A stretch of 64,000 bases of DNA from Allgaiera indica (GCF_900106675.1 NZ_FNOB01000003.1:1-64000); one strand, 5' to 3'; counted from the first letter of the stretch, positions 34,488-50,495 are shown. Made by a program: numbers and translations. The notes: generated from the letters alone by a model not told the origin.

Positions 34488-36923
34488 CTACATCCGCATC
34501 CGTTCGGCCTTGGGGTCATACATCGGCGCAAGGCTTGCTGTTGCCGCCACCCGCCGCCCCGCGATTTCGATCTCATAGGCCGAGGCCAGCACCTCCGCCG
34601 CGCTCTCTCCCGCACAGGGGACATAGCCCAGCCCCACCGCGCCCCCAAGCGCATGGCCGTAATTGCCCGAACTCACCACGCCGATGATCCGTCCGTCCCG
34701 GACCAGCGCCTCGTTGTGGAACAGCATCGCTTCGGGATCCTCCAGCAGGAACTGCACCAGCCGCCGCCCCAGCCCCGCCGCGCGCTTGCGCAGCACCGCC
34801 TCGCGGCCGATGAAATCGCCCTTGTCCTCCCTCACGGCAAAGCCCAGCCCGGCCTCCAGCACATGATCCTCGTCGGTGATGTCATGGCCGAAGTGGCGAA
34901 AGCCCTTCTCGATCCGGCAGCTGTCCAGCGCATGAAGCCCGCAAAGCGTCAGCTCGGGCGCGGCTTCCATCAGCGCCTCGAACACATGCGCGGCCTGATC
35001 GGTGGAAACATAAAGCTCCCACCCCAACTCGCCGACGTAGGAAACCCGATGGGCCCGGGCCAACCCCATGCCGATCTCGATCTCGCGTGCAACCCCGAAG
35101 GGATGGGCGGCGTTCGATAGATCGTCGGGGCTGACCCGGGCCAGCACCTCGCGCGACCCGGGACCCATCAGGCAGAACACCGCCTCGGCCGCCGTAACAT
35201 CGGTGATCACCGCCAGATCCCCGCCCAGATGCCGGCGCAGCCAGGCCAGATCGCGCTGCAAGGTGGCGCCGGGCACAACCAGCAGAAAGGCGGCCTCGGA
35301 TAGCCGCGTCACCGTCAGGTCGCTCTCGATCCCGCCACGGAGGTTCAGCATCTGAGTATAAACGATCCGCCCCGCCGCCACGTCGATCTGGTTTGCACAA
35401 AGCCGCTGCAGGAAGCGCAGCGCGCCCGGCCCCTCGACCCGGATCTTGCCGAACGAGGTCATGTCGAACAGACCCACGCCCTCGCGCACCGCCATATGCT
35501 CGGCGCGCTGGTTCTCGAACCAGTTCGGCTTGCCCCAGCAATAGCGATATTCGGCGGCCTGGCCGTCGCGCGCGAACCAATTCGCCCGCTCCCATCCCGC
35601 GACCTCGCCGAACACCGCGCCGCGGGCCTTCAGGTGTTCATGGATGGGCGATCGCCGCACGCCGCGCGCCGTCGCCATCTGCCGGTTCGGCCAGTGATCG
35701 GCGTAAAGCAGGCCCAGCGTCTCGCTTACCCGTTCGCGCAGATAGCGGCGGTTGCGCTGGAAGGGCTGGGCGCGGCGGATATCCACCTCCCACAGATCGA
35801 AGGGCGGCACCCCGTCTTCCATCCATTGCGCCAGCGCCATCCCGGCGCCGCCTGAACTGACGATGCCGATGGAATTGTAGCCCGCCGCGACCCAGTAGCC
35901 GCCCAATTCCGGCGCCTCGCCCAGATAATAGCGGTCGTCGGGGGTGAAGCTTTCGGGCCCGTTGAAGAATGTATGGATGCCGGCCGTCTGGAACATCGGC
36001 ATTCGCGCCGTCGCCATCTCCAGGATCGGCTCGAAATGCGCGAAATCCTCTGGCAGGGCGTCGAATTCGAATTCCTCGGGGATGCCGGCCATGCCCCAGG
36101 GCTTGGCCTTCGGCTCGAAGGCCCCCAGCATCATCTTGCCCGCGTCGGACTTGTAATAGGCGCATTCGTCCGGCACCCGCAGCACCGGAAGATGGCCCAG
36201 GCCCGCGATCGGCTCGGTCACCAGATAGAAATGCTCGCAGGCATGCAGCGGCAGGCTGACGCCCGAGCTGGCGGCCAGATCGCGGCCCCACATGCCGCCG
36301 CAATTCACCACCATCCCGGCGGCGATATGGCCACGCGTCTCGCCCGCCTGCCAGTCGACGCCGGTGACCCGGCCGCCCGCCTGCGTCACGGCGGTCACCT
36401 TCACGCCCTCGGCGATGCGCGCGCCCCGCATCCGCGCGCCCTTGGCCAGCGCCATGGCGATATTGGCCGGGTCGCATTGCCCGTCGCCCGGCAGATGCAC
36501 CGCACCCACCACATCGCCCACCTCCAGATGCGGATACATTGCCTTCACCTCGGCAGGCCCGATTTCGGCCACTTCGACATCGAAGGCCCGCGCCAGGCTC
36601 GCCTGCCGCAGCAATTCCTCATGCCGCTCCGCCGTCAGCGCGACCGAGATCGACCCCACCTGCCGCAGGCCGGTGGCCACCCCCGTCTCGGCCTCCAGCC
36701 CGGCGTAGAGATCGGCCGAATACTTCGCCAGCCGCGTCATGTTCTGCGATCCGCGCAACTGCCCCACCAGCCCCGCCGCATGCCAGGTGGTGCCGCAGGT
36801 CAGCCGCCTGCGCTCCAGCAGAACCACATCAGTCCAGCCCAGCTTCGCCAGATGATAGGCGACCGAGCAGCCGGAAACCCCGCCTCCGATGATCACCACC
36901 CGCGCCTGTCTCGGAAGCTCCAT
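34488..36923 (-). CDS. FAD-dependent oxidoreductase/aminomethyltransferase fusion (dimethylglycine/sarcosine dehydrogenase family), paralog 2
   Basis: An 811-residue two-part enzyme. The N-terminal DAO-type flavoprotein (about 1-400) has VVIIGGGVSGCSVAYHLAK near 9-27 and GTTWHAAGLV near 44-53, whose histidine matches the covalent FAD-linking residue of dimethylglycine dehydrogenase. The C-terminal half (about 420-811) is a GcvT folate-binding domain. The family oxidises N-methyl groups and passes the one-carbon unit to tetrahydrofolate. The exact N-methylated substrate is unknown. It lies downstream of a paralog of equal length, separated by a terminator. Confidence 0.88.
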   Translation of the reverse strand: MELPRQARVVIIGGGVSGCSVAYHLAKLGWTDVVLLERRRLTCGTTWHAAGLVGQLRGSQNMTRLAKYSADLYAGLEAETGVATGLRQVGSISVALTAERHEELLRQASLARAFDVEVAEIGPAEVKAMYPHLEVGDVVGAVHLPGDGQCDPANIAMALAKGARMRGARIAEGVKVTAVTQAGGRVTGVDWQAGETRGHIAAGMVVNCGGMWGRDLAASSGVSLPLHACEHFYLVTEPIAGLGHLPVLRVPDECAYYKSDAGKMMLGAFEPKAKPWGMAGIPEEFEFDALPEDFAHFEPILEMATARMPMFQTAGIHTFFNGPESFTPDDRYYLGEAPELGGYWVAAGYNSIGIVSSGGAGMALAQWMEDGVPPFDLWEVDIRRAQPFQRNRRYLRERVSETLGLLYADHWPNRQMATARGVRRSPIHEHLKARGAVFGEVAGWERANWFARDGQAAEYRYCWGKPNWFENQRAEHMAVREGVGLFDMTSFGKIRVEGPGALRFLQRLCANQIDVAAGRIVYTQMLNLRGGIESDLTVTRLSEAAFLLVVPGATLQRDLAWLRRHLGGDLAVITDVTAAEAVFCLMGPGSREVLARVSPDDLSNAAHPFGVAREIEIGMGLARAHRVSYVGELGWELYVSTDQAAHVFEALMEAAPELTLCGLHALDSCRIEKGFRHFGHDITDEDHVLEAGLGFAVREDKGDFIGREAVLRKRAAGLGRRLVQFLLEDPEAMLFHNEALVRDGRIIGVVSSGNYGHALGGAVGLGYVPCAGESAAEVLASAYEIEIAGRRVAATASLAPMYDPKAERMRM

Positions 36924-36930
36924 CCTTCAG

Positions 36931-36977
36931 CCCTTCATCTTGGCAAAAATACTCCGGGGTCCGGGGCAGCGCCCCGG
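36931..36977 (-). terminator. terminator with dispersed repeat between the two FAD/GcvT genes
   Basis: On the minus strand a stem CCGGGGC (36961-36967) / GCCCCGG (36971-36977) with loop AGC is followed by the repeat copy containing GTATTTTTGCCAAGATGAA (36931-36955), with a T5 run. It lies just past the stop of the upstream paralog at 36988, and directly before the start of the next gene, so the two paralogs may be separate transcription units. Confidence 0.6.
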
Positions 36978-36987
36978 CCCCGCCCTC

Positions 36988-39423
36988 TCATCCCCGCAAC
37001 CGCTCGTTCCGCGGATCCCACGGTGCCCCGTCCAGTACCTCCGCCGGATACCGCTTTCCGAAGATCTCCACCTCCAGCCGCATCCCCGGCGCCGCCAGAT
37101 CCGCCTGCACCATCCCCAGCGCCAGCGAGGCGCCGACCCGGTGCCCCCAGGCCCCGCTGGTGGTCTCGCCGACCACGCGCTCGCCCTGCCAGAGCGTCGA
37201 CATGTAGGGTGCGTCAAAGGCCCCGGCCGCCACCCGCAGGATCACGAAGCGCCTCGCCACGCCCGCCCGGGCCTCGGCCAGCAGCGCCGCGCGGCCACGG
37301 AAGTCGGGCTTGCCGAAATCCACGAACCGCTCCAGCCCGCCTTGCAACATGGTGTAATCGGTCGAAAGATCGCCCTTCCAGACGCGGTACCCCTTCTCGA
37401 TCCGCAAGCTGTTCAACGCGAACATCCCGAAGGGGCGCAGGCCGTGGGGGGCGCCCGCCGCCATCAGCGCATCCCAGACCGCCGGTGTGTCGGCAGGGCG
37501 CGAATGCACCTCCCAGCCCAGCTCTCCGGCGAACGAGACGCGCAAGAGCCGCACCTTCGCCCCGGCGATCGCGGCCGCCTGCCAGCTCAGCCAGGGCAGG
37601 CCCAGATCGGCGTCGCTCGCCGCCGCAAGGACCCTGCGCGAGGCCGGGCCGGTGACGATCTGACAGGTCCAGTCCCCGGTTTCGTCGACCAGCGTCAGCC
37701 CGGGGTCGAGATGGCCGCGCAGCCACTCGAAATCATGCAATTGCGCCGCGGCGGCGGTGATCAGCCAGATCTCGTCTTCGGCCAGCCGGACCAGCGACAT
37801 CTCGGTGACGATCCGGCCCCGATCGTCGGCGAAATAGCCAAGGCCCACACGGCCAACCCCCGGCACCCGCCCGGTGGTCTGGCGCGCCAGCCACGCCGCG
37901 GCGCCCGGCCCCGACAGCCGGAAGCGCGAGAAGCCGGGCAGATCGAGGATCCCCGCGGCATCGCGCACCGCGGTGCATTCCTCGGCCACGGCGCCGAACC
38001 ACGGCCCCTCGCGGTCCCAGGTCCGGCTTGCGACCTCGGACGTGTTGTCGCCCGGCCGTGCATACCAGTTCGCCCGTTCCCAGCCGTTGTAGGCGCCGAA
38101 GACGCCGCCAAGCGCCGCCATCCGGTCGTGCACGGGCGACAGCTTGCGGCCGCGCCCGGCGGGCCAGGCGTGATGGGGGAAGTGGATGGCGTATTCATGG
38201 CCATAAACCTCCATCCCCTTGGCAATGCAGTAATCTTCGTCCTCGAAGCCGGTGAAGCGGCGCGGATCGCAAGACCACATGTCCCATTCGGTCGCGCCCG
38301 CGGTCACCCATTCGGCCAGCACCTTGCCCGCGCCCCCGGCCTGGCAGATGCCGAAGGTGAAGACACAGGCCTCATAGGCGTTGGGCAGGCCCGGCATCGG
38401 TCCGATCAGCGGGTTGCCATCGGGGGTGTAGGGGATCGGGCCGTTGATCACGCGGGTCAGCCTCGCCTCGGACAACAGCGGCACCCGCGCCATGGCGTCG
38501 CCGATATGCCATTCCAGCCGGTCCAGATCGTCGGGAAACAGCTGGAAGCTGAAATCGTCGGGGAAGGGATCGTCGCCGCCGGTCCAATGCGCCCGGCAAT
38601 CGGCCTCATAGGGTCCCAGATTGAAACCCATCTTCTCCTGCCGCAGGTAGTAGGAGCTGTCGACATCACGCAGAAGCGGCAGCTTGCGGCCCTCGGATCT
38701 CGACCATTCTTCCAGTTCCGGGATCGTGTCGAAGAGCATGTATTGATGGCTCATGACCATCATCGGTACGGCGCGGCCGAACATGGCGCCCACCTCGCGC
38801 GCGTAATAGCCGGCGGCGTTCACCACCACCTCGCAGCGGATCTCTCCCTTCGCGGTCTCGATCACCCATTCGCCGCCCGCGCGCCGCACGCCGGTCACCG
38901 GGCAGAAGCGCTCGACCCGGGCGCCGAGGTCGCGCGCGCCCTTGGCCAGTGCCTGCGTCAGCTGCGCCGGGTCGATATCGCCGTCATGGGGATCATACAG
39001 CGCCGCCGTCAGGTCATGCGTCTCGACGAAGGGGTAGTGCGCGCGCAGATCCTCGGGGCCCAGAACCTCCAGTTCCATGCCCTGATGGCGGCCCATGCCG
39101 CGCACGCGCTCGAATTCCAGCCGCCGCTCGCGCGTGTGGCCCAGGCGGACCGATCCGGTGATGTGATAATTCATCGGATAATCGACCGCTTCGCCCAGGC
39201 CGCGGTAAAGCTCGGCCGAATAGCGCTGCATGTTCATGATCGCCCAGGACGATGAAAACGTGGGCACGTTGCCGGCCGCGTGCCAGGTCGACCCGGCCGT
39301 CAGTTCACTCTTCTCCAGCAGCAGCGCATCTGTCCAGCCGGCCTTCGCCAGATGGTAGAGGCACGAGGCCCCCACTGCCCCGCCGCCGATGATCACGGCC
39401 CTTGCCTGCGTCGGAAACGTCAC
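36988..39423 (-). CDS. FAD-dependent oxidoreductase/aminomethyltransferase fusion (dimethylglycine/sarcosine dehydrogenase family), paralog 1
   Basis: An 811-residue flavoprotein with the same layout and length as its neighbour at 34488: DAO-type FAD domain with VIIGGGAVGASCLYHLAK near 10-27 and GSTWHAAGNV near 44-53, then GcvT and GCV_T_C domains. Sequences differ clearly between the two, including after the FAD-linking motif (here NVPTFSSSWAIMNMQRYS), so they probably use different N-methyl substrates such as dimethylglycine, sarcosine or related compounds. The start is GTG at 39423, preceded by the strong site GGGAGGGG. Confidence 0.88.
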   Translation of the reverse strand: MTFPTQARAVIIGGGAVGASCLYHLAKAGWTDALLLEKSELTAGSTWHAAGNVPTFSSSWAIMNMQRYSAELYRGLGEAVDYPMNYHITGSVRLGHTRERRLEFERVRGMGRHQGMELEVLGPEDLRAHYPFVETHDLTAALYDPHDGDIDPAQLTQALAKGARDLGARVERFCPVTGVRRAGGEWVIETAKGEIRCEVVVNAAGYYAREVGAMFGRAVPMMVMSHQYMLFDTIPELEEWSRSEGRKLPLLRDVDSSYYLRQEKMGFNLGPYEADCRAHWTGGDDPFPDDFSFQLFPDDLDRLEWHIGDAMARVPLLSEARLTRVINGPIPYTPDGNPLIGPMPGLPNAYEACVFTFGICQAGGAGKVLAEWVTAGATEWDMWSCDPRRFTGFEDEDYCIAKGMEVYGHEYAIHFPHHAWPAGRGRKLSPVHDRMAALGGVFGAYNGWERANWYARPGDNTSEVASRTWDREGPWFGAVAEECTAVRDAAGILDLPGFSRFRLSGPGAAAWLARQTTGRVPGVGRVGLGYFADDRGRIVTEMSLVRLAEDEIWLITAAAAQLHDFEWLRGHLDPGLTLVDETGDWTCQIVTGPASRRVLAAASDADLGLPWLSWQAAAIAGAKVRLLRVSFAGELGWEVHSRPADTPAVWDALMAAGAPHGLRPFGMFALNSLRIEKGYRVWKGDLSTDYTMLQGGLERFVDFGKPDFRGRAALLAEARAGVARRFVILRVAAGAFDAPYMSTLWQGERVVGETTSGAWGHRVGASLALGMVQADLAAPGMRLEVEIFGKRYPAEVLDGAPWDPRNERLRG

Positions 39424-39574: not shown

Positions 39575-41092
39575 TCAGGCGAAGCCGGGAAAGTAGTCGA
39601 CACGGATGCGGCGGCGGGCGACGCCCAGTTCGGCAAGCGATTTCTGGAAATGCCGCACCATGCTTCGGGGCCCCGAGACATAGAAGATCCTGTCGCGGAA
39701 ATCCGGCACTTCCCGCGCGATCAAGGCGCAATCGATCCGGCCAGCATGACCGGGGTCGACCTCGGGCTCCGGATCGGACAGGGCGTAGACGGTGCGCAGG
39801 CCGATCCGGGCGCGGGCATCGTCGAGGAGTTCGGAATACGAGATGTCGGCGGCCCGCGTCGCGCCGTACAGCAGGACGGCGGGGCGAAGGTCGCCGGTAT
39901 CCATCATGTGCTGGATCATGCTGCGAAACGGCGTGATACCGATGCCGCCGGCGATGAAGACCAGCTTTTCGGTCCGGCGCGGCGGCAGGGTGAAGCCGCC
40001 GCCAACGCGCGCGCCATGGATCATGTCACCTGGTCGCATCCGCGCCAACGCCTGTTTGAAGGCGCTGGGGGCGGGGTGGAATTTCACTCCCAGCCGAATC
40101 TCGGCGTCGCCGGGCGCCGATGCGATGGTGAAGGTTCGCCGATTGCCGCGATTGTCGGGGGTCGGGACGTCCAGCGTCCAGTCCAGATATTGCCCGGGTC
40201 GGAAGCGCAGCGGCCGGTCCGGGGAGAAGACGTAATCATAGCAGGCCTCGGCGGTGCGCTCGATCCGCTTCAGGCGCAGCCGGTAGCCGCCCTTGTGGCC
40301 GATCGCGAAGGCAAACAGATTTCCGGCCAGCAAGGCCATCTCGGGCGTCGGGTAGAAGCTGCCGAAATGGGTGTTGGGCGATGACAACGCGCCCACGAGA
40401 ATGCCGTAAAGGATGCGTGGGGCGCGGGCCTGGGGGGCGGTCTGCGGCTCTGTCAGCATGGCGAAGCCGGCGAAGAAAAGCGGCGAATAGAGCACCGAGA
40501 ATTGCAGCGTCTGGCCGATCATCGCCAGTGGCGAAGTCGCCAGCGCAAGGCCCAGACTGGTCAGAAGATAGGCGCCAACCATGTCGAAGCGCTGCATCTT
40601 GCGCACCACCAGCACGCCGCCGATCACGACGACCACCAGCAAAAGCGGGCTGCCGTCCACCCACCAGGTTGCGGGCTGGCCCACCGCGAGGGCCGCCGCG
40701 ACCGCACCCAGCGCGACCGGGTTGAACAGGTGCCTGCGCCGCACCGTCAGCAGGAATTTCGACGCGATCGCGGCAGCCGAGGCCACCATCAGCCCCAGCA
40801 CGCCGATATGGTCCCGCGCCGCCACCGGCGGCATCAGAAGCACCAGGATCAGCGCGGTGATATGGACCGAGTCGGTATTCACCGGCACCCGTAAGGCCCA
40901 GGCAAAGGCGCGGTTGACCGCCCAGCAGGTGGCGGTGACGATCATCACCGACAGCGCCAGCTGCGCCGGATCCGCGGGGCTGAGCCCCCAGAAGCCGCCG
41001 ATCAGCGCCACCGCGACCAGCGCCGCGACGTAGTACAGCACCAGGCGGTACATCGTTATCCGGTTCAAGGCCGCGTCCAGAAATCCAGTCAT
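39575..41092 (-). CDS. membrane flavin reductase: NqrB/RnfD-like membrane domain fused to a ferredoxin-NADP reductase-type domain
   Basis: A 505-residue protein with two parts. Residues about 15-265 form an NqrB/RnfD-like membrane domain of roughly eight helices; the family loop is visible as MLTEPQTAP (212-220) and RRRHLFNPVALGA (118-130). Residues about 270-505 form an FAD/NAD(P)-binding reductase: FAD motif RRTFTIAS at 318-325, nucleotide motif GGIGITPF at 382-389, then YVSGPRSMV and the C-terminal DYFPGF. There is no ferredoxin domain and no S/T-G-A-T flavinylation motif in the membrane part. It should move electrons from NAD(P)H across the membrane. The start overlaps apbE by four bases. 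Confidence 0.88.
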   Translation of the reverse strand: MTGFLDAALNRITMYRLVLYYVAALVAVALIGGFWGLSPADPAQLALSVMIVTATCWAVNRAFAWALRVPVNTDSVHITALILVLLMPPVAARDHIGVLGLMVASAAAIASKFLLTVRRRHLFNPVALGAVAAALAVGQPATWWVDGSPLLLVVVVIGGVLVVRKMQRFDMVGAYLLTSLGLALATSPLAMIGQTLQFSVLYSPLFFAGFAMLTEPQTAPQARAPRILYGILVGALSSPNTHFGSFYPTPEMALLAGNLFAFAIGHKGGYRLRLKRIERTAEACYDYVFSPDRPLRFRPGQYLDWTLDVPTPDNRGNRRTFTIASAPGDAEIRLGVKFHPAPSAFKQALARMRPGDMIHGARVGGGFTLPPRRTEKLVFIAGGIGITPFRSMIQHMMDTGDLRPAVLLYGATRAADISYSELLDDARARIGLRTVYALSDPEPEVDPGHAGRIDCALIAREVPDFRDRIFYVSGPRSMVRHFQKSLAELGVARRRIRVDYFPGFA

Positions 41093-41835
41093 GTCACAAC
41101 CAATTCGTTGAAGCCCGAGGTCATGGTCGCGACGCCATCCGCGCCAACCATGTAGCCCTCGAGTCCGGGGGTTTCCTCGATGAAGGTGATGCCGTCCTCT
41201 TCCATGGCGAAGGCGGCAGTGGCGAAGCGGTCGGCCTCCAGCACGTCTGGGCCGATCACGGTCAAGCTGACGATGCGGGTGATCTCGCGGCCCGGATCGT
41301 GGGGATCGTAGATATGCTGGCCTCGGGCCGCGGTGCCCGAGGTGGCGATGCCGCAATCGCTTAGCCCCAGGACCTTGATGATCTCGTCCCGGGCGAAGGG
41401 GTTCGACAGGCCGACGCGCCAAGGCCCGCCCTCGGCATCCAGGCCCGACAGCTCCATGTCGCCGGCGATCTCGACGCAGAAATGCCGGTGCCCCAGCCCA
41501 CGCAGCAGATCGGCCGCGCGCTTCAGCGCCCAGCCCTTGACCACGCCCGACGGGTCGAGCGCGCCGTCTGGGCGCCGGATGCGGAAATAGCCGTGGGTCT
41601 GGGTCTTGGTCATGTCCGCCAGGTCCAGCACGTCGCGCATCTCGGCGCTCAGGTCCCCGGCGGAGATCTCGCCGCGGTCGAAGCGGCACAATTCGCTGTC
41701 CCGGCGATAGGGGCTGAAACGCGCGTCGGCCGCCTGAAGCAGCTTGAAGACCGCACCAAAGGGGGCGAAATCGGCGGTGTCGCGGATCTCGACGATCACG
41801 GGCATGCCCATGATCTGGCAGACATGACGAGGCAT
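41089..41835 (-). CDS. apbE: FAD:protein FMN transferase (ApbE family)
   Basis: A 248-residue ApbE-family enzyme that uses FAD to attach FMN to a serine or threonine of a target protein. The segment LDPSGVVKGWA at 93-103 and the Mg/flavin loop CGIATSGTAARG at 161-172 match the family, as does ADRFATAAFAM near 201-211. The protein is shorter than typical periplasmic ApbE lipoproteins, and no signal peptide is visible, even if the open frame upstream (to 41922) is used. The presumed target is the adjacent FMN-binding protein, encoded four bases upstream on the same strand. Confidence 0.88.
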   Translation of the reverse strand: MPRHVCQIMGMPVIVEIRDTADFAPFGAVFKLLQAADARFSPYRRDSELCRFDRGEISAGDLSAEMRDVLDLADMTKTQTHGYFRIRRPDGALDPSGVVKGWALKRAADLLRGLGHRHFCVEIAGDMELSGLDAEGGPWRVGLSNPFARDEIIKVLGLSDCGIATSGTAARGQHIYDPHDPGREITRIVSLTVIGPDVLEADRFATAAFAMEEDGITFIEETPGLEGYMVGADGVATMTSGFNELVVT

Positions 41836-41839
41836 CTTG

Positions 41840-42208
41840 TCAAAGCGCCCGGTCGAGCGCGCTTTGCAGCGATTCCAGATAGGCGCGGCTGTCAAGCGAG
41901 GCGCCCGAGACGTGGCGCACATGGGTGCTTTGCGCGGCGATCACCTCGCGTTCCAGCCGGGGCAGGGCGCGGCGCGCGATATAGCGGCTGGTCGACCGGT
42001 CGTGGGGCGCGCGCAGCACCTCGACCCGGGCAAGGCGGCCGTGGCGGATGATGGCGCGGACCTGCACCCTGCCGTAATAGGCGCTGTAGCTGCGCCCGGT
42101 ATAGGCGCCGTCGCGCAACCCCCGCGCGACGGCCGGGGCCAGCCCCAGGCCGGCACTGACCGCGAGGGCGGCGCCAAGAATTCGGCAACTCTCTTTCCAT
42201 CTGCTCAT
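41840..42208 (-). CDS. exported FMN-binding domain protein
   Basis: A 122-residue protein with a Sec signal peptide (basic MSRWKESCR, hydrophobic core, probable cleavage after AVA at about 27-29). The mature part is an FMN-binding domain (DGAYTGRSYSAYYGRVQVRAII). The C-terminal SGAS at 101-104 fits the ApbE recognition pattern, with Ser104 the probable FMN-linked residue. It would carry electrons in the periplasm from the NqrB/RnfD-like reductase. It is the first gene of the three-gene flavin operon, divergent from a two-component regulator across 145 bases. Confidence 0.85.
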   Translation of the reverse strand: MSRWKESCRILGAALAVSAGLGLAPAVARGLRDGAYTGRSYSAYYGRVQVRAIIRHGRLARVEVLRAPHDRSTSRYIARRALPRLEREVIAAQSTHVRHVSGASLDSRAYLESLQSALDRAL

Positions 42209-42353
42209 GATAGGCTCATATCTTTTCGTGCTTTGCGTGGGCTTCGGGTACCGTCCTGGCCTGACGTGAAGCTGAAAGCGGTGCGGCGTGGCGATCAGAC
42301 CGGCGTGATCGGGCGGAAGGCCGCCGTCGCCGGGCGTGAAGCGGGAGGGGCAG
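42209..42353. promoter_or_regulatory. divergent promoter region of the flavin operon and two-component system
   Basis: This 145-bp gap between the leftward flavin operon and the rightward response-regulator gene must contain both promoters, and is the natural place for the regulator to bind. I cannot identify convincing -35/-10 or operator repeats by eye. A strong ribosome binding site, GGGAGGGG (42343-42350), precedes the response-regulator ATG at 42354. Confidence 0.45.
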
Positions 42354-43010
42354 ATGCGCGTTCTGTTGGTTGAGGATGATCCCGCTCTGGGGGGGGCGGT
42401 GCGCGAACACATCGCAAGCCTCGGCTATGGCGTGGATCTGGCGCCGACGCTGGAAGAGGCCGAGGCCGCGCTGGGCATGGTCGGTTACGAGATGCTGATC
42501 CTCGATCTTGGCCTGCCCGACGGCGACGGGCTGGACCTTCTGCGCCGCCAGCGCCGCGCCGGGGCTGAGCTGGGGGTGATCATCGTCACCGCGGTGGATC
42601 AGATCGCGCGGCGGATCGAGGGTTTGAATAGCGGTGCCGACGATTACATCGTCAAGCCCTTCGACCTGGATGAGCTGACCGCACGGATCGCCTCGGTCCT
42701 GCGGCGCTACAGCGGCAATCCCAATCCGCTGGCCCGGATCGGCGAGGTCGAGGTGGACATCGCGCGGCGGATCCTGCGCAGGGGAGAGGCGCGTGTCGAC
42801 CTGACGGCGCGCGAATGGGCGGTGCTCGAGCGGCTGCTGCGCCATCCGGGCGCCATCGTCGGCAAGCCCGAGATCGAGGATTCCCTTTACGCCTTCGGGG
42901 CAGAGATCGAGAGCAACGCGGTCGAGGTCTATATCAGCCGGCTGCGCAAGAAGCTGGGCCACGGCGCCATCGCCACCGTGCGCGGTGCCGGCTACCGGGT
43001 CGAGCCTTGA
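42354..43010 (+). CDS. OmpR/PhoB family response regulator
   Basis: A 218-residue regulator with a receiver domain and a winged-helix DNA-binding domain. The acidic pocket is Asp8/Asp9, the phosphorylation site Asp51 (LILDLGLPDGDG), switch Thr79 and Lys101 in IVKPFD. The output domain ends RGAGYRVEP, as usual. The start at 42354 (MRVLLVED) has a strong GGGAGGGG site; a start six codons upstream is less likely. Its stop lies within reach of the sensor kinase start, so they are one operon. It probably controls the divergent flavin operon. Confidence 0.93.
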   Translation: MRVLLVEDDPALGGAVREHIASLGYGVDLAPTLEEAEAALGMVGYEMLILDLGLPDGDGLDLLRRQRRAGAELGVIIVTAVDQIARRIEGLNSGADDYIVKPFDLDELTARIASVLRRYSGNPNPLARIGEVEVDIARRILRRGEARVDLTAREWAVLERLLRHPGAIVGKPEIEDSLYAFGAEIESNAVEVYISRLRKKLGHGAIATVRGAGYRVEP

Positions 43011-43018
43011 GCCGGGCC

Positions 43019-44401
43019 ATGCCCGGGCATCTTCGGCGCGGGCTTCGGCCGGAACCCTCGATCACACGGCGGCTGGTGCTGAGCCTGACGCTGGCGACGG
43101 TGGTGATGTGGTGCCTGGGCGCGGGTTACGCCAGTTATGCCTCTTACCGGCAGGTCAGCGCGGCCTTCGACGCGGCGCTGCGCCAGACCGCGCTGCGCAT
43201 TCTGCCGCTGGCCGCCGACGACGCGATTTCGCACGAGGCGGACGACGCGCGCGATATCGCCCGCATGATGGACGGTGGCGCGGTGCACATCAGTTATGTC
43301 CTCAGCGACGACAGCGGCAAGGTGTTGCTGCGCGAACGCGGCGCGCCGCAGATCCCGTTTTCGAACGACCGCAGGCCGGGGTTTTCCACTGCCCACGGCT
43401 ACCGGATCTATTCCCGCCGCGATCCGGTGAAGGGGCTGACCATCACCATCGTCGAATCGATGCGCGACCGCAGGCGCGCGCTTTACGACAGCATCACCGC
43501 GATGTTGGGGCCCTTGCTGCTGCTGGTGCCGCTGAACATCCTGGCGATCTGGCTGGGGGTGCGCGGGGCGCTGCGCCCGATCGAGCGGCTGCGCGCCGAT
43601 ATCGCCGCCCGCGACGGCCGCAACCTCGCCCCCCTTGACCAATCCGGCCAGCCGCGGGAACTGCGGCCGATCGCCGATGCCGTCGCGCGGCTGATCGAGC
43701 GTCTTGCCCGCGCGCTGGACGCCGAGCGCGCTCTTTCGGCCAACAGCGCGCATGAACTGCGCACCCCCATCGCCGGCGCCCTGGCGCAGACCCAGCGTCT
43801 GCTGGCCGAGACACAGGACCCCCCGGCGCGCGCGCGCGGGCAGGAGATCGAGGCCACCTTGAAACGGCTGGCCCGTCTTTCGGACAAGCTGATGCAACTG
43901 GCGCGAGCCGACGCCGGGATCGGGCTGCATACCACGCCTGTCGATCTGAAACCGATCTTCGACGTGGTGGTGATGGACACGGCGGCCCACTGGAACGCCG
44001 CCACCCGGGTGCAGGTGGCGGCGGGGGGCGTGGAAAGCCTTTGGGCCGCGATGGATCCCGACGCTTTCGCGCTGGTGCTGCGCAATCTGCTGGACAACGC
44101 CCTGGCCCATGGACCCCGGGACGGGGCGGTGCAGGTCACGCTGGACCCCGGCGGCCTGTTGCGTGTCGAGAACGGCGGCCCGGTGCTGCCCGCGAAGGTC
44201 CTCGCGACGCTGACCCGGCGCTTCGCGCGTGGCCGGACCGGGGCCAGCGGCGCCGGGCTGGGCCTGGCGATCGTGCAGACGATCGTCGGGCAAAGCGGTG
44301 GCGCGCTGCGCCTGGTCTCGCCCGCGCCGGGCCGGTCCGACGGCTTCGCCGCAGAGGTGCAGTTGCCGCTTGTCGCGGCCAAGGCCCTCGCCAAGCTCTG
44401 A
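43019..44401 (+). CDS. sensor histidine kinase
   Basis: A 460-residue HisKA-type membrane sensor kinase. Membrane helices lie at about 20-42 and 160-182, with a 115-residue periplasmic sensor domain between them that has no recognised fold. The phosphoacceptor is His245 in SAHELRTP, followed by the ATPase domain with the N box NLLDNALAHG and G box GAGLGLAIVQ. A TTG at 43007 overlapping the regulator's stop (TTGA) is an alternative start; ATG 43019 is used. What it senses is unknown; location suggests a redox or envelope cue. Confidence 0.9.
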   Translation: MPGHLRRGLRPEPSITRRLVLSLTLATVVMWCLGAGYASYASYRQVSAAFDAALRQTALRILPLAADDAISHEADDARDIARMMDGGAVHISYVLSDDSGKVLLRERGAPQIPFSNDRRPGFSTAHGYRIYSRRDPVKGLTITIVESMRDRRRALYDSITAMLGPLLLLVPLNILAIWLGVRGALRPIERLRADIAARDGRNLAPLDQSGQPRELRPIADAVARLIERLARALDAERALSANSAHELRTPIAGALAQTQRLLAETQDPPARARGQEIEATLKRLARLSDKLMQLARADAGIGLHTTPVDLKPIFDVVVMDTAAHWNAATRVQVAAGGVESLWAAMDPDAFALVLRNLLDNALAHGPRDGAVQVTLDPGGLLRVENGGPVLPAKVLATLTRRFARGRTGASGAGLGLAIVQTIVGQSGGALRLVSPAPGRSDGFAAEVQLPLVAAKALAKL

Positions 44402-44535: not shown

Positions 44536-45570
44536 ATGACATTCCAGACCGGCGTTCCCTGCCTGGCCGATGTGCTGGCCGCAGCGCAAAGGATCCTTGG
44601 CATCGCGGCGCGCACGCCACTGGTACCTTCGCCCTTCCTCACCGATCGGCTGGGCGCCGATTTTCTGCTGAAGTTGGAGATCGCCCAGCCCATCGGCGCG
44701 TTCAAGCTGCGCGGCGCGGCCAATGCCATCGCCGCCGTGCCCGATGGCGCGCCTGGTGTCGTGTGCTGCTCGACCGGCAATCACGGCCGGGCGGTCGCCC
44801 ATGCGGCGGCGCGGCGCGGGCTTCGTGCGGTGGTGTGCCTGTCTGCGCTGGTGCCCGAGGCCAAGCTTGCGGGTATTCGCACGCTGGGCGCCGAGCTGCG
44901 CATCGTCGGCCGCAGCCAGGACGACGCCCAGGCCGAGGCCACCCGTCTGATGGCCGAGGCGGGCTTGGCCGAGATCCCGCCCTTCGACGACCCCGCCGTG
45001 ATCGCGGGGCAAGGCACGCTTGGGCTGGAGATCCTGGCCGAGCGTCCCGATATCGGCACGCTCCTGGTGCCGCTGTCGGGCGGCGGGCTGGCTGCCGGGG
45101 TGGCGCTGGCGGCGAAGGCGATCAAGCCCGACGTCCGGGTGATCGGCGTTTCGATGGATCGCGGCGCGGCGATGGCGGCCTCGATCGCCGCGGGCCGCCC
45201 GGTGGCGGTACAGGAAGTGGCCAGCCTGGCCGATAGCCTGGGCGGCGGCATCGGGCTGGACAACCGGCTGAGTTTCGCGCTTTGCCGTGATCTGCTTGAC
45301 GCGGTGGTCCTGGTCACCGAAGAGGAGATCTACCGCGCCCTGCAGGCGCTTTTCCATGAAGACCGGCTGGTTGCCGAAGGTGCCGCTGTCGTCGGCATTG
45401 CGGCGCTCTTGTCGGGCAAGCTGGCGGGCCAGCTGGACGCGGGCGCGCCGGTGGCCACGATCCTGACCGGGCGCAACCTCGACATGGGGGTCTTGGCGCG
45501 GATCGTGACGGGGGCGGATGTGGAACTGGACGGCAAGATCGTGAAGGGGGCGCCATGGCGCAGGACATAA
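44536..45570 (+). CDS. eutB: ectoine utilization protein EutB (PLP-dependent dehydratase)
   Basis: A 344-residue fold-type II PLP enzyme related to threonine dehydratase. The PLP lysine is Lys57 in GAFKLRGA, the phosphate loop STGNHG is at 79-84 and SGGGLAAG lies near 180. Family-specific segments IVGRSQDDAQAE, DRGAAMAAS and LADSLGGGIGLDNR match EutB proteins of hydroxyectoine catabolism, thought to dehydrate the hydroxylated substrate. The start has a GACGGAGG site. It overlaps eutC by 16 bases. beta-Hydroxyaspartate dehydratase is a related alternative, but the neighbours favour EutB. Confidence 0.85.
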   Translation: MTFQTGVPCLADVLAAAQRILGIAARTPLVPSPFLTDRLGADFLLKLEIAQPIGAFKLRGAANAIAAVPDGAPGVVCCSTGNHGRAVAHAAARRGLRAVVCLSALVPEAKLAGIRTLGAELRIVGRSQDDAQAEATRLMAEAGLAEIPPFDDPAVIAGQGTLGLEILAERPDIGTLLVPLSGGGLAAGVALAAKAIKPDVRVIGVSMDRGAAMAASIAAGRPVAVQEVASLADSLGGGIGLDNRLSFALCRDLLDAVVLVTEEEIYRALQALFHEDRLVAEGAAVVGIAALLSGKLAGQLDAGAPVATILTGRNLDMGVLARIVTGADVELDGKIVKGAPWRRT

Positions 45571-46541
45571 GGATCGTGACCGAGGCCCAGCTACGCCAGG
45601 CCCTGCCGCTGGATCTTGCCGCCGTCGAGGCCGTCGAGGGCGCCTTTGCCGCGCTGGCGAAGGGTGGCGTGGTGATGCCGCCGGTCATGTCCATGGATCT
45701 GGCGGCCGCGCATGGCGAAGTCGATGTGAAGACCGCCTATATCCCGGGCTACGACGGCTTCGCCATCAAGGTCAGCCCCGGTTTCTTCGACAACCCGAAG
45801 CTGGGGCTGCCCAGCCTGAACGGGCTGATGGTGCTGTTTTCGGCGCGGACCGGTCTGGTGCAGGCGCTGTTTCTCGACAACGGCTATCTGACCGACCTGC
45901 GCACCGCCGCCGCCGGCGCCGTGGCCGCGCGGCATCTGGCGCCCTCGCGGGTAACGACGGCGGGGGTGATGGGCACCGGCGTGCAGGCGCGCCTGCAGAT
46001 CGCCGCCGCGCATCTGGTGCGGCCCTTCGCGCGCGTCCTTGTATGGGGCCGCGATCTTGCCCGCGCGCAGGCCTGTGCGGCCGACATCGCCCGTGATCTG
46101 GGCGTCGAGGCCCGGGCCGAGGCCGATCCGGCGCGTCTGGTCCGCGACAGCCAGCTGGTCGTCACTACCACGCCCGCGAAGACACCGATCCTGCGCGCCG
46201 AATGGCTGCATCCGGGCCTGCATATCACCGCGATGGGTGCTGACCAGGCGGGCAAGAACGAGATCCAGCCGACCGCGCTGGCCGCTGCCGATCTCTATGT
46301 CTGCGACCGGGTCAGCCAGTGTGAAACGCTGGGAGAGTTGCGTAGCGCGCGTGCCTCGGGTGACTGGACCGGGGCCACACCGCCGGAGCTGGGCGCGGTG
46401 GTTCTGGGCCGCTCGCCGGGGCGGGGTTCGGAGGATCAGGTGACCATCGCCGACCTCACCGGCACCGGGGTGCAGGACACCGCCATCGCCTGCCACGCGC
46501 TTCCCCGGCTGGGGGACGCCGGCAGCGTGATCAGGGCGTGA
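45555..46541 (+). CDS. eutC: ectoine utilization protein EutC (ornithine cyclodeaminase-like)
   Basis: A 328-residue protein of the ornithine cyclodeaminase/mu-crystallin family with an NAD-binding Rossmann domain. Segments EVDVKTAYIPGYDGFAIKVS, FFDNPKLGLPSLNGLMV and DNGYLTDLRTAAAGAVAARH match EutC. It probably reduces the imine formed by EutB in the conversion of the hydroxylated compound to the non-hydroxylated one. It overlaps eutB by 16 bases and is followed after three bases by the asnC-type gene. The related iminosuccinate reductase of the beta-hydroxyaspartate cycle is the main alternative. Confidence 0.85.
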   Translation: MAQDIRIVTEAQLRQALPLDLAAVEAVEGAFAALAKGGVVMPPVMSMDLAAAHGEVDVKTAYIPGYDGFAIKVSPGFFDNPKLGLPSLNGLMVLFSARTGLVQALFLDNGYLTDLRTAAAGAVAARHLAPSRVTTAGVMGTGVQARLQIAAAHLVRPFARVLVWGRDLARAQACAADIARDLGVEARAEADPARLVRDSQLVVTTTPAKTPILRAEWLHPGLHITAMGADQAGKNEIQPTALAAADLYVCDRVSQCETLGELRSARASGDWTGATPPELGAVVLGRSPGRGSEDQVTIADLTGTGVQDTAIACHALPRLGDAGSVIRA

Positions 46542-46544
46542 ACC

Positions 46545-47045
46545 ATGCAGCTTGACCGGCGCGATATCGAAATCCTGCGCGTGCTGTCGCGCGAGGGGCG
46601 GATCACCAAGACGGCGCTGGCCGAAAAGGTGGGCCTGTCGCCCACGCCCTGCTGGGAGCGGCTGAAAAAGCTGGAGAGTGCCGGCATCATCGTGGGCTAT
46701 CATGCCGAGATCGCGCTGAAGCGGATCGGCCCCCATGTCACCGTCTTCATGGCCGCCGAACTGGCCGACCACACCGCCGCGCGCTTTCGCATCTTCGAGG
46801 ACGAGGTGCGCCGGCGTGACGAGATCACCGCGTGCTGGGCGCTGGGCGGCGGCTATGATTACCTGCTGCAGGTCATCGCGCGCGACATCGACGCCTATCA
46901 GCGGCTGGTCGATGATCTGCTAGAGGCCCATATCGGGCTGGCGCGATATTTCACCTATATCGTGACCAAGCCGGTGAAGGGCGCGGGCGTGCCGCCGCTG
47001 GCGCTGATCGCGGGGCTGGGGGCGGCAGAGGATTCCTCTGCCTGA
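46545..47045 (+). CDS. Lrp/AsnC family transcriptional regulator
   Basis: A 166-residue Lrp/AsnC regulator. The N-terminal helix-turn-helix is clear (LDRRDIEILRVLSREGRITK and SPTPCWERLKKLESAGII), followed by the RAM effector-binding domain. The corresponding gene in ectoine clusters (AsnC/DoeX) senses pathway metabolites such as acetyl-diaminobutyrate or diaminobutyrate. It lies inside the eut operon, so autoregulation with the operon is likely. Confidence 0.88.
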   Translation: MQLDRRDIEILRVLSREGRITKTALAEKVGLSPTPCWERLKKLESAGIIVGYHAEIALKRIGPHVTVFMAAELADHTAARFRIFEDEVRRRDEITACWALGGGYDYLLQVIARDIDAYQRLVDDLLEAHIGLARYFTYIVTKPVKGAGVPPLALIAGLGAAEDSSA

Positions 47046-47148
47046 CCCCGGGGTGGGGCGATGAAATCGCCTGCCTGGCGCCCCAAGTTTGGCCCGATCG
47101 TCTGACCGCCTTGGCGCAGTCTTGCGCCGAACGATCAGGATGATTCCC

Positions 47149-48624
47149 ATGCTCGATACAGCCCTCTCGCTTCGCGGCGACATCACCGACAAGCGCCTCG
47201 TGCGCAATTTCTCCTATCTTGGCGGCAAGTGGACGGCGGCGGCGGACGGCGCCACCTTCGTCGTCACCGACCCTGCCAACGGCGCCCAGGTGGGCGAGGT
47301 GGCGGCGCTGACCGCGGCCCAGGCGCGCGACGCGGTGGACGCGGCGCAGGCGGCCTTTCCCGCCTGGTCGGCGCTGCTGCCGCAGGATCGTTCGGCCCTG
47401 CTGCGCCGCTGGTTCGAACTGATGGGCGAAACCCGCGAGGATCTGGCCCGCATCATGGTGCTCGAACAGGGCAAGCCGCTGTCCGAGGCGTGGGGCGAGA
47501 TCGACTATGCGGCCTCGTTCATCGAATTCTACGCCGAGGAGGCGAAGCGCCCCAATATCGAGGGCGTCACCAGCCATCTGCACGACGCCGAGGTCGAGGT
47601 CTGGCGCGAACCCGTGGGGGTGGCGGCACTGATCACGCCGTGGAACTTCCCCGCCGCCATGCTGACCCGCAAGGCCGCCGCGGCGCTGGCCGCGGGCTGC
47701 ACCGTGGTCGCGCATCCTTCGGCCGAGACCCCGTTCTCGGCCCTGGCGCTGGCGGAGCTTGCCGAACGCGCGGGCTTTCCGCCGGGTGTCTTCAACGTGG
47801 TCACCGGCGACGCACCGACGATCGTCAAGCCGTGGACCGAAGACACCCGCGTGCGCGCGCTGTCGTTCACCGGCTCGACCCGGGTGGGGCAGCTTCTTTA
47901 CCGCCAAAGTGCCGCGACGGTGAAGCGGCTGGTGCTGGAACTGGGCGGCCACGCGCCGGTGATCGTCTTCGCCGATGCCGATCTCGACCACGCGGTGGCC
48001 GAGACGATGAAGGCCAAGTTCGCCACCTCGGGCCAGGATTGCCTGGGTGCGAACCGGATCTTTGTCGAGCGCGGCATCTATGACGCCTTCTGCGCGCGCT
48101 TCGCCGAGGCCACGCAGGCGCTGACCGTCGGTCCCGGGATGGACGACCCCGACATCGGCCCGCTGATGAACGAAGCCGCCGTCGCCAAGCAGGAGGAACA
48201 CGTCGCCGACGCGCTGGCGAAGGGTGCGCGCCTTGTCTGCGGCGGCGCGCGGCATCCGCTGGGGCCGCTTTTCTATCAGCCCACGGTGCTTGCCGACGTG
48301 CCCGAGGAGGCGCTGATCCTGGCCGAGGAAACCTTTGGCCCCGTCGCGGCGATCCTGCCGTTCGATACCGAGGACGAGGTCGTCACCCGCGCCAACGCCA
48401 CCGAATACGGGCTGGTCGCCTATCTGCACAGCCTTGATCCGCGTCGGATCTACCGGGTCAGCCGGGCGCTGCAATTCGGCATGGTGGCGGTCAACCGCAC
48501 CAAGGTGACCGGCGCGCCGATCCCCTTCGGCGGCATGAAGCAGTCCGGCATCGGCCGCGAAGGCGCCCGGCTGGGGATGGAGGCCTTCACCGAGGTCAAA
48601 TACGTCTGCCGCAACTGGGCCTGA
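47149..48624 (+). CDS. doeC: NAD-dependent aldehyde dehydrogenase, ectoine-cluster Ssd/DoeC type
   Basis: A 491-residue aldehyde dehydrogenase. The catalytic residues are Glu264 in LVLELGG and Cys298 in SGQDCLG, with the substrate/cofactor segment ITPWNFPAAM at 162-171. The sequence is closest in pattern to succinate-semialdehyde dehydrogenases; in the ectoine pathway this enzyme oxidises L-aspartate semialdehyde to aspartate. AGGA eight bases before the ATG at 47149 supports this start over ATG 47140. About 100 bases after the regulator, in the same operon. Confidence 0.85.
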   Translation: MLDTALSLRGDITDKRLVRNFSYLGGKWTAAADGATFVVTDPANGAQVGEVAALTAAQARDAVDAAQAAFPAWSALLPQDRSALLRRWFELMGETREDLARIMVLEQGKPLSEAWGEIDYAASFIEFYAEEAKRPNIEGVTSHLHDAEVEVWREPVGVAALITPWNFPAAMLTRKAAAALAAGCTVVAHPSAETPFSALALAELAERAGFPPGVFNVVTGDAPTIVKPWTEDTRVRALSFTGSTRVGQLLYRQSAATVKRLVLELGGHAPVIVFADADLDHAVAETMKAKFATSGQDCLGANRIFVERGIYDAFCARFAEATQALTVGPGMDDPDIGPLMNEAAVAKQEEHVADALAKGARLVCGGARHPLGPLFYQPTVLADVPEEALILAEETFGPVAAILPFDTEDEVVTRANATEYGLVAYLHSLDPRRIYRVSRALQFGMVAVNRTKVTGAPIPFGGMKQSGIGREGARLGMEAFTEVKYVCRNWA

Positions 48625-48650
48625 CACCGAATTCAACGAAAGGACGCAAG

Positions 48651-50021
48651 ATGCTGAGAAACGATCAACTTGAAAGCTGGGACCGCGAGAACTTCTTCCA
48701 CCCGTCGACCCATCTCGCCCAGTTCGCCCGCGGCGAGCTGCCCCAGCGCGTGGTCACCGGCGGCTCGGGCGTGTTCATCGAGGACCGTGACGGCAATAAG
48801 CTGATGGATGCCTTCGCCGGCCTCTACTGCGTGAACGTGGGCTACGGGCGCACCGAGATCGCGGACGCCATCGCCGCGCAGGCAAAGGAACTGGCCTATT
48901 ACCACTCCTATGTCGGCCATGGCACCGAGGCCTCGATCACGCTGGCGAAGATGATCCTCGACCGCGCGCCCGCGAACATGTCGAAGGTCTATTTCGGCCT
49001 TGGCGGGTCGGACGCGAACGAGACCAACATCAAGCTGGTCTGGTACATGAACAACATCCTCGGCCGCCCCGAGAAGAAGAAGATCATCTCGCGCTGGCGC
49101 GGCTATCACGGATCCGGCCTGATGACCGGATCACTGACGGGGCTGGAGCTGTTTCACAAGAAGTTCGACCTGCCGCTGACCCAGGTGATCCATACCGAGG
49201 CACCCTATTACTTCCGCCGCCCCGATGCCGCGATGACCGAGGCCGAGTTCACCGCCCATTGCGCGGCCGAACTGGAAAAACTGATCGAGGCCGAGGGCGC
49301 CGACACCATCGCCGCCTTCATCGGCGAGCCGGTGCTGGGCACGGGCGGCATCGTGCCGCCGCCCGCGGGCTATTGGGAAGCGATCCAGAAGGTCTTGAAG
49401 AAGCACGACATCCTGCTGATCGCCGATGAGGTCGTCACCGGCTTTGGCCGTCTGGGCACGATGTTCGGCTCGGACCATTACGGGATCGAGGCCGACATCA
49501 TCACCATCGCCAAGGGGCTGACCTCGGCCTATGCGCCGTTGTCGGGCTCGATCGTGTCGGACAAGGTGTGGAAGGTGCTGGAGCAGGGCACCGATGAATT
49601 CGGCGCCATCGGCCATGGCTGGACCTATTCGGCCCATCCGATCGGCGCGGCGGCGGGTGTCGCCAACCTGCGCCTGATCGATAGCCTTGGCCTGGTCGAG
49701 AACGCCGGGACGGTGGGGGCCTACCTGAACCGCGCGATGAAAGAGGCGCTGGGCGATCACGCCCACGTCGGCGACATCCGCGGCGAGGGCATGCTTTGCG
49801 CCGTGGAATTCGTCGAGGACCGCGACGCGCGACGCTTCTTCGGGGCCGAGCGCAAGGTGGGGCCGCAGATCGCCGCGGCACTGCTGAAGCGCGACGTGAT
49901 CGGCCGGGCGATGCCGCAGGGCGACATCCTGGGCTTCGCGCCGCCCCTGTGTCTGACTCAGGACGAGGCCGACCGCATCGTCGCCGCGACCCAAGAGGCC
50001 GTGAGCGAAGTATTGGGCTGA
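48651..50021 (+). CDS. doeD: class III aminotransferase, ectoine-cluster Atf/DoeD type
   Basis: A 456-residue PLP class III (omega) aminotransferase. The PLP lysine is Lys288 in IAKGLTSAY, and the upstream DEVVTGFGR loop is present. In ectoine degradation the enzyme at this position converts L-2,4-diaminobutyrate to aspartate semialdehyde, which DoeC then oxidises. On sequence alone it could also be another omega-aminotransferase (beta-alanine, taurine or GABA type). AAAGGACG precedes the ATG. A hairpin follows the stop. Confidence 0.85.
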   Translation: MLRNDQLESWDRENFFHPSTHLAQFARGELPQRVVTGGSGVFIEDRDGNKLMDAFAGLYCVNVGYGRTEIADAIAAQAKELAYYHSYVGHGTEASITLAKMILDRAPANMSKVYFGLGGSDANETNIKLVWYMNNILGRPEKKKIISRWRGYHGSGLMTGSLTGLELFHKKFDLPLTQVIHTEAPYYFRRPDAAMTEAEFTAHCAAELEKLIEAEGADTIAAFIGEPVLGTGGIVPPPAGYWEAIQKVLKKHDILLIADEVVTGFGRLGTMFGSDHYGIEADIITIAKGLTSAYAPLSGSIVSDKVWKVLEQGTDEFGAIGHGWTYSAHPIGAAAGVANLRLIDSLGLVENAGTVGAYLNRAMKEALGDHAHVGDIRGEGMLCAVEFVEDRDARRFFGAERKVGPQIAAALLKRDVIGRAMPQGDILGFAPPLCLTQDEADRIVAATQEAVSEVLG

Positions 50022-50036
50022 GGTCTGGAACCCATC

Positions 50037-50064
50037 GGGCGCGCGTCCTGACCGGCGCGCGCCC
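50037..50064 (+). terminator. hairpin at the end of the eut operon
   Basis: GGGCGCGCG (50037-50045) pairs with CGCGCGCCC (50056-50064) over a ten-base loop, 15 bases after the aminotransferase stop. No T-run follows, so the assignment as a terminator rests on its position and stem alone. It lies between two converging genes. Confidence 0.45.
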
Positions 50065-50099
50065 CGACTGGCGCGCGTCTCGCCCTCGCCGGGGCCTTG

Positions 50100-50495
50100 T
50101 TAGGAAATCACCGCGCGCACGGCGCGTTCGATTTCCAGCGGCGAGGACGGTTTGGGGCAGATTCGCGCCCCGGGATAGCGGCGCGCCAGCGCGCCGGGGT
50201 CCGCGTGGCCGGAATGGAAGATGATCGGCACATTGGCGGCATGCAGCGCATCGGCCAAATCGTAAACCTCGCCATCGGTCAACTGGACATCGAGGATCGC
50301 GACGTCGGGCTTGCGCCCTGCCATCGCCGCAAACCCGGAGGCCACCGATGGATAGGGGCCGATCACCGCCAGCCCCATGTCTTCCAGAATGAATTGTAGG
50401 TCGAGGGCCACGATCGCCTCGTCCTCGAGGACAAGAACGCCCAGGCTTGTCCCGATCGCCTCATCCCTGCTCAGAACCATGCTCGCATCTGTCAT
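50100..50495 (-). CDS. stand-alone response regulator receiver protein
   Basis: A 131-residue single receiver domain with no output domain. The pocket residues are Glu24/Asp25, phosphoacceptor Asp69 (ILDVQLTDG), switch Ser95 and Lys115 (CPKPSS). The LTDGEVYDLADAL pattern is typical of receivers paired with HWE-type histidine kinases. The partner kinase is not adjacent. It may act by protein-protein contact or as a phosphate sink. It converges on the eut operon. Confidence 0.88.
   Translation of the reverse strand: MTDASMVLSRDEAIGTSLGVLVLEDEAIVALDLQFILEDMGLAVIGPYPSVASGFAAMAGRKPDVAILDVQLTDGEVYDLADALHAANVPIIFHSGHADPGALARRYPGARICPKPSSPLEIERAVRAVIS

Follow-up and report, generated by a model that had tools for sequence, protein, structure and literature searches.

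Positions 39,575–44,401 of a 64,000-nt stretch of the Allgaiera indica genome (GCF_900106675.1, NZ_FNOB01000003.1:1-64000; hereafter the window) hold three flavin genes and, divergent from them, a response regulator and a sensor histidine kinase. We think it likely that the five genes form an NQR/RNF-like flavinylated cassette for electron export, controlled by a two-component system that is shared with a different flavin exporter, and that this cassette works as follows.

The kinase would sense a periplasmic condition. The phosphorylated regulator would bind a repeat at 42261 and activate the FMN_bind-apbE-reductase operon and probably its own gene, as the conservation and the position of the operator suggest. 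ApbE would put flavin mononucleotide (FMN) on a serine of the FMN_bind precursor, and this would probably happen in the cytosol; the protein would then be exported. By homology with the published proposal, the FNR domain would draw electrons from reduced nicotinamide adenine dinucleotide (phosphate) (NAD(P)H) and send them across the membrane, via the NqrB/RnfD-like domain, to FMN in the periplasm. The FMN would pass them to a diffusible acceptor, most likely an oxidised metal such as Fe(III). The features are:

39575–41092 (−): fusion of an NqrB/RnfD-like membrane domain with an FNR-type NAD(P)H reductase, 505 aa (Pfam PF03116 and PF00175 above cut-off)
41089–41835 (−): ApbE flavin adenine dinucleotide (FAD):protein FMN transferase, 248 aa, without an export signal (PF02424, E=2e-34)
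41840–42208 (−): FMN_bind protein, 122 aa, predicted to be exported (PF04205; hydrophobic N-terminus; model matches 8p2a)
41897–41908 (−): SGAS codons, residues 101–104, with the predicted FMN attachment at Ser104 (motif alignment)
42209–42353 (no strand): divergent intergenic region, 145 bp (sequence)
42261–42276 (+): predicted regulator-binding direct repeat CTGACGTGAAGCTGAA (conserved CTGAM-N6-CTGAM, sole match in the window)
42354–43010 (+): OmpR/PmrA-type response regulator, 218 aa (PF00072 and PF00486; orthology to regulators facing other cassettes)
43019–44401 (+): sensor histidine kinase, 460 aa, with a periplasmic sensor region between two membrane helices (PF00512 and PF02518; reciprocal best match)

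The original prediction had named the same fused reductase, FMN transferase, SGAS protein, regulator and kinase at these positions, and its spacing of 145 bases was exact. It had also described one overlapping operon: this is correct for ApbE and the fused reductase, the reading frames of which overlap by 4 bp, but the FMN_bind and ApbE genes are separated by a 4-bp gap. It had not noted that ApbE carries no export signal, nor that the usual aspartate is missing from the FMN_bind motif.

Type and distribution of the module

The fused protein carries PF03116 (NQR2_RnfD_RnfE) at residues 153–264 and PF00175 (NAD_binding_1) at residues 379–483. In a structure comparison of its model, the reductase half folded like the FAD/NAD domains of flavohaemoglobin and NqrF. 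The structural matches listed for the model (predicted template modelling score 0.52) included no NqrB/RnfD chain, and the membrane half was assigned from Pfam and NCBIfam. Inspection of the fused membrane protein sequence revealed no [S/T]GA[S/T] motif, meaning that the covalent flavin site of NqrB/RnfD is absent.

Meheust et al. 2021 (PMC8238504) used a PF03116-PF00175 fusion within a flavinylation-associated gene cluster to define NQR/RNF-like systems. A one-way flow from NAD(P)H to extracytosolic flavin remained the proposal in Huang et al. 2024 (PMC11334425), who noted that the NqrB/RnfD flavinylation site is missing from the membrane protein. In the window, PF03116 is N-terminal to PF00175 in one protein, ApbE and FMN_bind are clustered with at least one putative export signal (the hydrophobic N-terminus of FMN_bind), and the membrane domain lacks the covalent flavin site. 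As the domain content and the missing membrane flavin site fit the published definition, the module is, by its sequence features, a member of this known kind (described in 2021 and 2024). The operon holds three genes only and not the full set of pump subunits of Na+-NQR or Rnf; nor does it contain the PepSY_TM protein and DUF2271 substrate of a PepSY-like system. The suggested electron route from NAD(P)H through the FNR and NqrB/RnfD-like domains to FMN matches the published proposal (PMC8238504, PMC11334425). The idea that this is a little-described compact version with its own regulator had to be revised, because the module had been published and the regulator is not peculiar to it.

The fused reductase, with all five genes, was present in the three genomes of the genus (Acidimangrovimonas); the co-occurrence on which the earlier reading had been made to depend was thus found. 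In Acidimangrovimonas sediminis, the genes flanking the five have no similarity to the flanks in the window. As the five genes are kept although the flanks differ, they appear to form a unit. A search of 198 other genera of the family gave only matches to the reductase domain and no full-length fusion. Orthologues of the fused reductase share 84 and 73% identity within the genus and 49–57% in family f2 and the genus Mesorhizobium (g223), which includes a Mesorhizobium plasmid sequence (100% match) and in which 50 of 119 genomes had a match. A distant relative (35% identity) lies on a small contig that had been submitted as plasmid sequence from Pseudomonas. In this 19-kb record (L029:6965-9948, NZ_CP081947.1), the order argS, hom, thrC, thrB looks actinobacterial and chromosomal; its distant NQR/RNF-like module has an FMN_bind protein that resembles a lipoprotein, and its ApbE has no export signal.

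Some further variants were seen. In Mesorhizobium B2-1-1 (L028:9081-15854), the module lies near a nos operon, with VIT and cytochrome b561 genes on one side and, on the other, a different two-component system accompanied by a small PepSY protein. Some Mesorhizobium genomes (L068, G1045, G995) have copies of ApbE or the fused reductase that are likely frame-shifted or split. In G802, two unfused 280-aa RnfD-like copies without a reductase domain lie beside FMN_bind genes (L039:8997-11459 and L040:9009-10168), and one of them is accompanied by a signal-less ApbE.

Regulator, operator and cassette exchange

Homologues of the kinase were found in 48 of the 198 other genera (E up to 1e-45). When the kinase of one of these genera was compared with the A. 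indica genome, the window kinase was the best match at 3.7e-92 and the next one followed at 4.4e-33 (reciprocal best match). The regulator is 47–61% identical to regulators facing other cassettes; its best NCBIfam matches, PmrA and QseB, were both below the curated cut-offs.

At 37 of 51 related kinase loci, DUF2271 and a PepSY_TM/flavodoxin/NAD-binding gene occupy the same slot, divergent from the regulator. Such a DUF2271 and PepSY_TM reductase set is a PepSY-like flavinylated system, and one DUF2271 protein has been demonstrated to be flavinylated (PMC8238504). ApbE was found at 39 of the 51 loci (including two weak matches from genus loci), PepSY_2 at 37, cytochrome b561 at 17 and VIT at 10; these counts are lower bounds, as several loci end at a contig edge. 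DUF2271 was absent from all three genus genomes searched. The small PepSY_2 protein, which stands beside the regulator in 37 of the 51 loci (within L117-L173), is also missing in the genus of the window; in Vibrio cholerae, DbfQ accompanies DbfRS in a parallel manner (PMC12714742). At one locus (L168:7215-8603(-)), the orthologous kinase is directly followed by a Ferric_reduct membrane protein in place of the flavin cassette.

Comparison of the 260 bp 5' of the regulator at 54 loci revealed a direct repeat, CTGAM-N6-CTGAM, with a period of 11 and often with two inverted copies ~33 bp apart. It was present in 36 of the 37 DUF2271 loci, in all three genus loci and in 9 of the 14 others, compared with 74 of 2160 stretches taken at random from the same loci; the pattern used for these counts also admitted G at the last position. 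Upstream DNA contained 76 sites in ~14 kb, the remaining sequence 46 in 840 kb. The repeat is likely the site of the regulator, judged by this conservation.

The only match in the window lies between the divergent starts, 53–68 bp before the start of FMN_bind. With 0.20 matches expected per 64 kb and at least one match in 19 of 100 shuffles, a single match is expected fairly often by chance; the weight of the site therefore comes from its position and conservation and not from the match itself. The stricter form CTGAC-N6-CTGAA occurred 3, 3 and 7 times in the three genus genomes, and only the module's site was common to them. In the two congeners, weak second copies of the repeat are visible 33 bp away. 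A wider regulon derived from this operator was rejected: the other sites in the three genomes were mostly within coding sequence, and none was common. The BqsR operator, TTAAG-N6-TTAAG, likewise consists of two pentamers with a 6-bp spacer (PMC4682146), so the architecture is equal and the sequence another.

In a FastTree tree of regulator and kinase, the genus branches within the DUF2271-linked group, and the DUF2271 loci L161 and L163 fall outside the clade holding the genus (support 0.96). The comparison of loci shows that different cassettes face a conserved regulator and predicted operator, meaning that the control is kept while the electron-export cassette differs. Among the possible orders of events, the simplest reading would be that a PepSY-like cassette was replaced by an NQR/RNF-like one. 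None of our searches of the open-licence literature turned up a two-component system linked to DUF2271/PepSY/ApbE operons, and as far as the open literature searched shows, the cassette exchange is undescribed.

That the two-component system is merely a neighbour with no control over the flavin operon is very unlikely. The same regulator family is found with other cassettes, and Mesorhizobium and f2 hold the module without this regulator, which fits such a reading. The predicted operator is, however, conserved across the exchanged cassettes, and the arrangement is retained in three species despite differing flanks. A single two-component system for all NQR/RNF-like modules was rejected, since Mesorhizobium has a different one: its regulator is ~40% and its kinase ~27% identical to those of the window, with a PepSY gene alongside. 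The f2 modules have no two-component system of their own; a nearby regulator, behind a phosphate-transport-like gene run (read by eye), is probably PhoB. The control of the operon by its sensor, at first a guess from adjacency, has gained the conserved operator and the regulator orthology as backing. The regulator is shared more widely, however: its orthologues in the 48 other genera mostly face a different exporter.

Flavin attachment and electron acceptor

The FMN_bind protein matched PF04205 at E=9e-4 with 20.3 bits, which is just below the 22-bit cut-off. In the PDB, its AlphaFold model was best matched by 8p2a, one domain of a protein with multiple FMNs (E=2.9e-5, template modelling score 0.72 on the target). 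The mean predicted local distance difference test value was 68, with 75–91 in most domain blocks and 59–63 near residues 91–110, which hold the motif. The N-terminus is signal-like and hydrophobic (maximum Kyte-Doolittle value of 1.95 over 13 residues). Outside the genus, the motif of the fused-type module is D-I-[IV]-S-G-A-T (D-L-I-T-G-A-T in L040). Within the genus, it is RHVSGAS or SFVSGAS.

The motif aspartate, which the genus has lost, is reported to be strictly conserved, yet an alanine at this position had a minor effect on a test protein; Ser was less effective than Thr (PMC12052999). The loss was rejected as proof of inactivity because of this minor effect and because the motifs of DUF2271 proteins vary too (mostly GITGAS in related operons). 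We consider it improbable that the genus FMN_bind protein is not covalently flavinylated, with FMN loosely held or the function lost and ApbE acting on something else. The altered motif, the FMN_bind score and the ApbE without an export signal would fit such a loss. Against it, the genes are retained in all three species, the ApbE catalytic Ser, His and Asp positions are intact (alignment to solved ApbEs), in two of the three species the genome has no ApbE or FMN_bind other than those of the module, and Ser-acceptor DUF2271 motifs with a varied first residue are common in related operons.

In the window ApbE, 8 residues precede the first conserved motif. Among the module ApbEs, a possible start 7–10 residues before this motif was found in 35 of 36 genes, and the 36th (L068) is apparently frame-shifted. 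Two genes have a more distant in-frame start (37 residues in the window, 15 in L042), with no hydrophobic stretch there. Five of six genomes checked (G199, G200, G259, G204 and G271) had the module's ApbE and FMN_bind as the sole copies found, with split matches assigned to one gene. A signal-less ApbE as a peculiarity of the window locus was rejected, as nearly all readable DUF2271 loci likewise encode an ApbE with no signal. A. indica (G000) has a second ApbE with a twin-arginine translocation (Tat)-like leader on contig C37 (~48293-51803; L043, L061), beside NqrF-like and FMN_bind sequences. This is probably a full Na+-NQR locus, and it was not found in the two congeners. The argument for attachment before export is weaker in A. 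indica for this reason.

A signal-less and often sole ApbE means that FMN is loaded before export or that ApbE gets into the periplasm in some other way. In published work, secreted proteins are flavinylated in the periplasm, and a few cytosolic ApbEs are known (PMC12052999). On the sequences at hand, the chances appear even that FMN is loaded in the cytosol by the signal-less ApbE and the protein then crosses the membrane, for both FMN_bind and DUF2271. If true, this would reverse the usual order, remove the need for FAD export and hold for two unrelated substrates. It raises the concrete question of the cell compartment in which exported proteins get flavinylated. As far as the open literature searched shows, the signal-less and often sole ApbE is undescribed.

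As acceptor, we tentatively favour an oxidised metal such as Fe(III). The Caulobacter PepSY-like cassette is Fur-regulated, induced by iron limitation and required under ethylenediaminetetraacetic acid/iron chelation, which points to periplasmic ferric reduction (PMC3751524, PMC12004947). Together with these data, the PmrA/QseB-like regulator and the Ferric_reduct-like protein directly downstream of one kinase (L168) led us to favour metal reduction; VIT genes near 10 of the 51 related loci are a further hint. The presence of two unrelated flavin exporters on one control circuit argues for the same job. Alternatively, the electrons could go to a specific periplasmic or membrane protein encoded elsewhere, such as a cytochrome or a repair reductase. 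Protein partners are known for several ApbE systems (PMC8238504), and cytochrome b561 genes lie near many related loci and one Mesorhizobium locus. However, neither the genus nor f2 nor Mesorhizobium has such a partner gene conserved beside the module, and no second intergenic operator site is common to the three genomes, so that we regard this alternative as rather unlikely. For the same loci, a conserved terminal reductase beside the module was rejected, and inspection of the window locus confirmed that none adjoins it. A periplasmic acceptor under this sensor had been suggested before; the link to the sensor has been strengthened, but our best guess is now a metal ion and not a reductase protein. 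With a regulator now identifiable for ApbE-based electron export, and a short DNA site to go with it, trigger and acceptor become directly testable across ~50 related genera.

Some observations weigh against the reading as a whole. The placement of the genus inside the DUF2271-linked group hangs on one FastTree support value, and the set that defined the repeat included the genus loci, although the 37 DUF2271 loci alone still define it. The lost aspartate of the FMN_bind motif belongs here as well. No iron gene is adjacent to the module within the window. Moreover, the iron sensor BqsS carries an ExxE motif (PMC12666569). In 31 of the 37 DUF2271-linked kinases, an ExxE closely follows the first membrane helix, at roughly the position it has in BqsS, but none of the three genus kinases has it. 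Hence, the signal may differ in the genus and may not be iron.

The surroundings of the module hold other functions. Positions 44536–48624, 3' of the kinase, encode EutB, an EutC-like cyclodeaminase, an Lrp-type regulator and an aldehyde dehydrogenase, which are hydroxyectoine/ectoine utilisation genes. At 34488–39423, there are two tandem 811-aa FAD oxidoreductase/GcvT fusions, similar to sarcosine/dimethylglycine dehydrogenase, with ~34% identity to each other's orthologues.

Comparison with known systems

The module shares with the NQR/RNF-like system (PMC8238504, PMC11334425) the PF03116-PF00175 fusion, FMN_bind and ApbE in a single operon and the missing membrane flavinylation site. It differs in the two-component system and operator common to another cassette, the signal-less ApbE and the FMN_bind motif without the aspartate. 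With Na+-NQR and Rnf, it has in common the NqrB/RnfD-type membrane domain, the NqrF-type reductase domain, the NqrC/RnfG-type FMN_bind carrier and ApbE, but only one half of the electron path is present, with no further pump subunits in the operon.

The iron-responsive BqsRS/CarRS system (PMC12666569, PMC4682146) also has an OmpR-type regulator and two pentamers 6 bp apart, and most of the related kinases carry its ExxE. The pentamer is CTGAM here and TTAAG there, and the genus kinases lack ExxE.

The PepSY-like system (DUF2271, PepSY_TM/NAD-binding reductase and ApbE) faces the orthologous regulator and operator in 37 of the 51 loci. It also consists of an NAD(P)H reductase, a membrane domain and an exported ApbE substrate, with an ApbE that likewise has no export signal. 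The membrane domain and the flavin carrier, by contrast, are unrelated in sequence.

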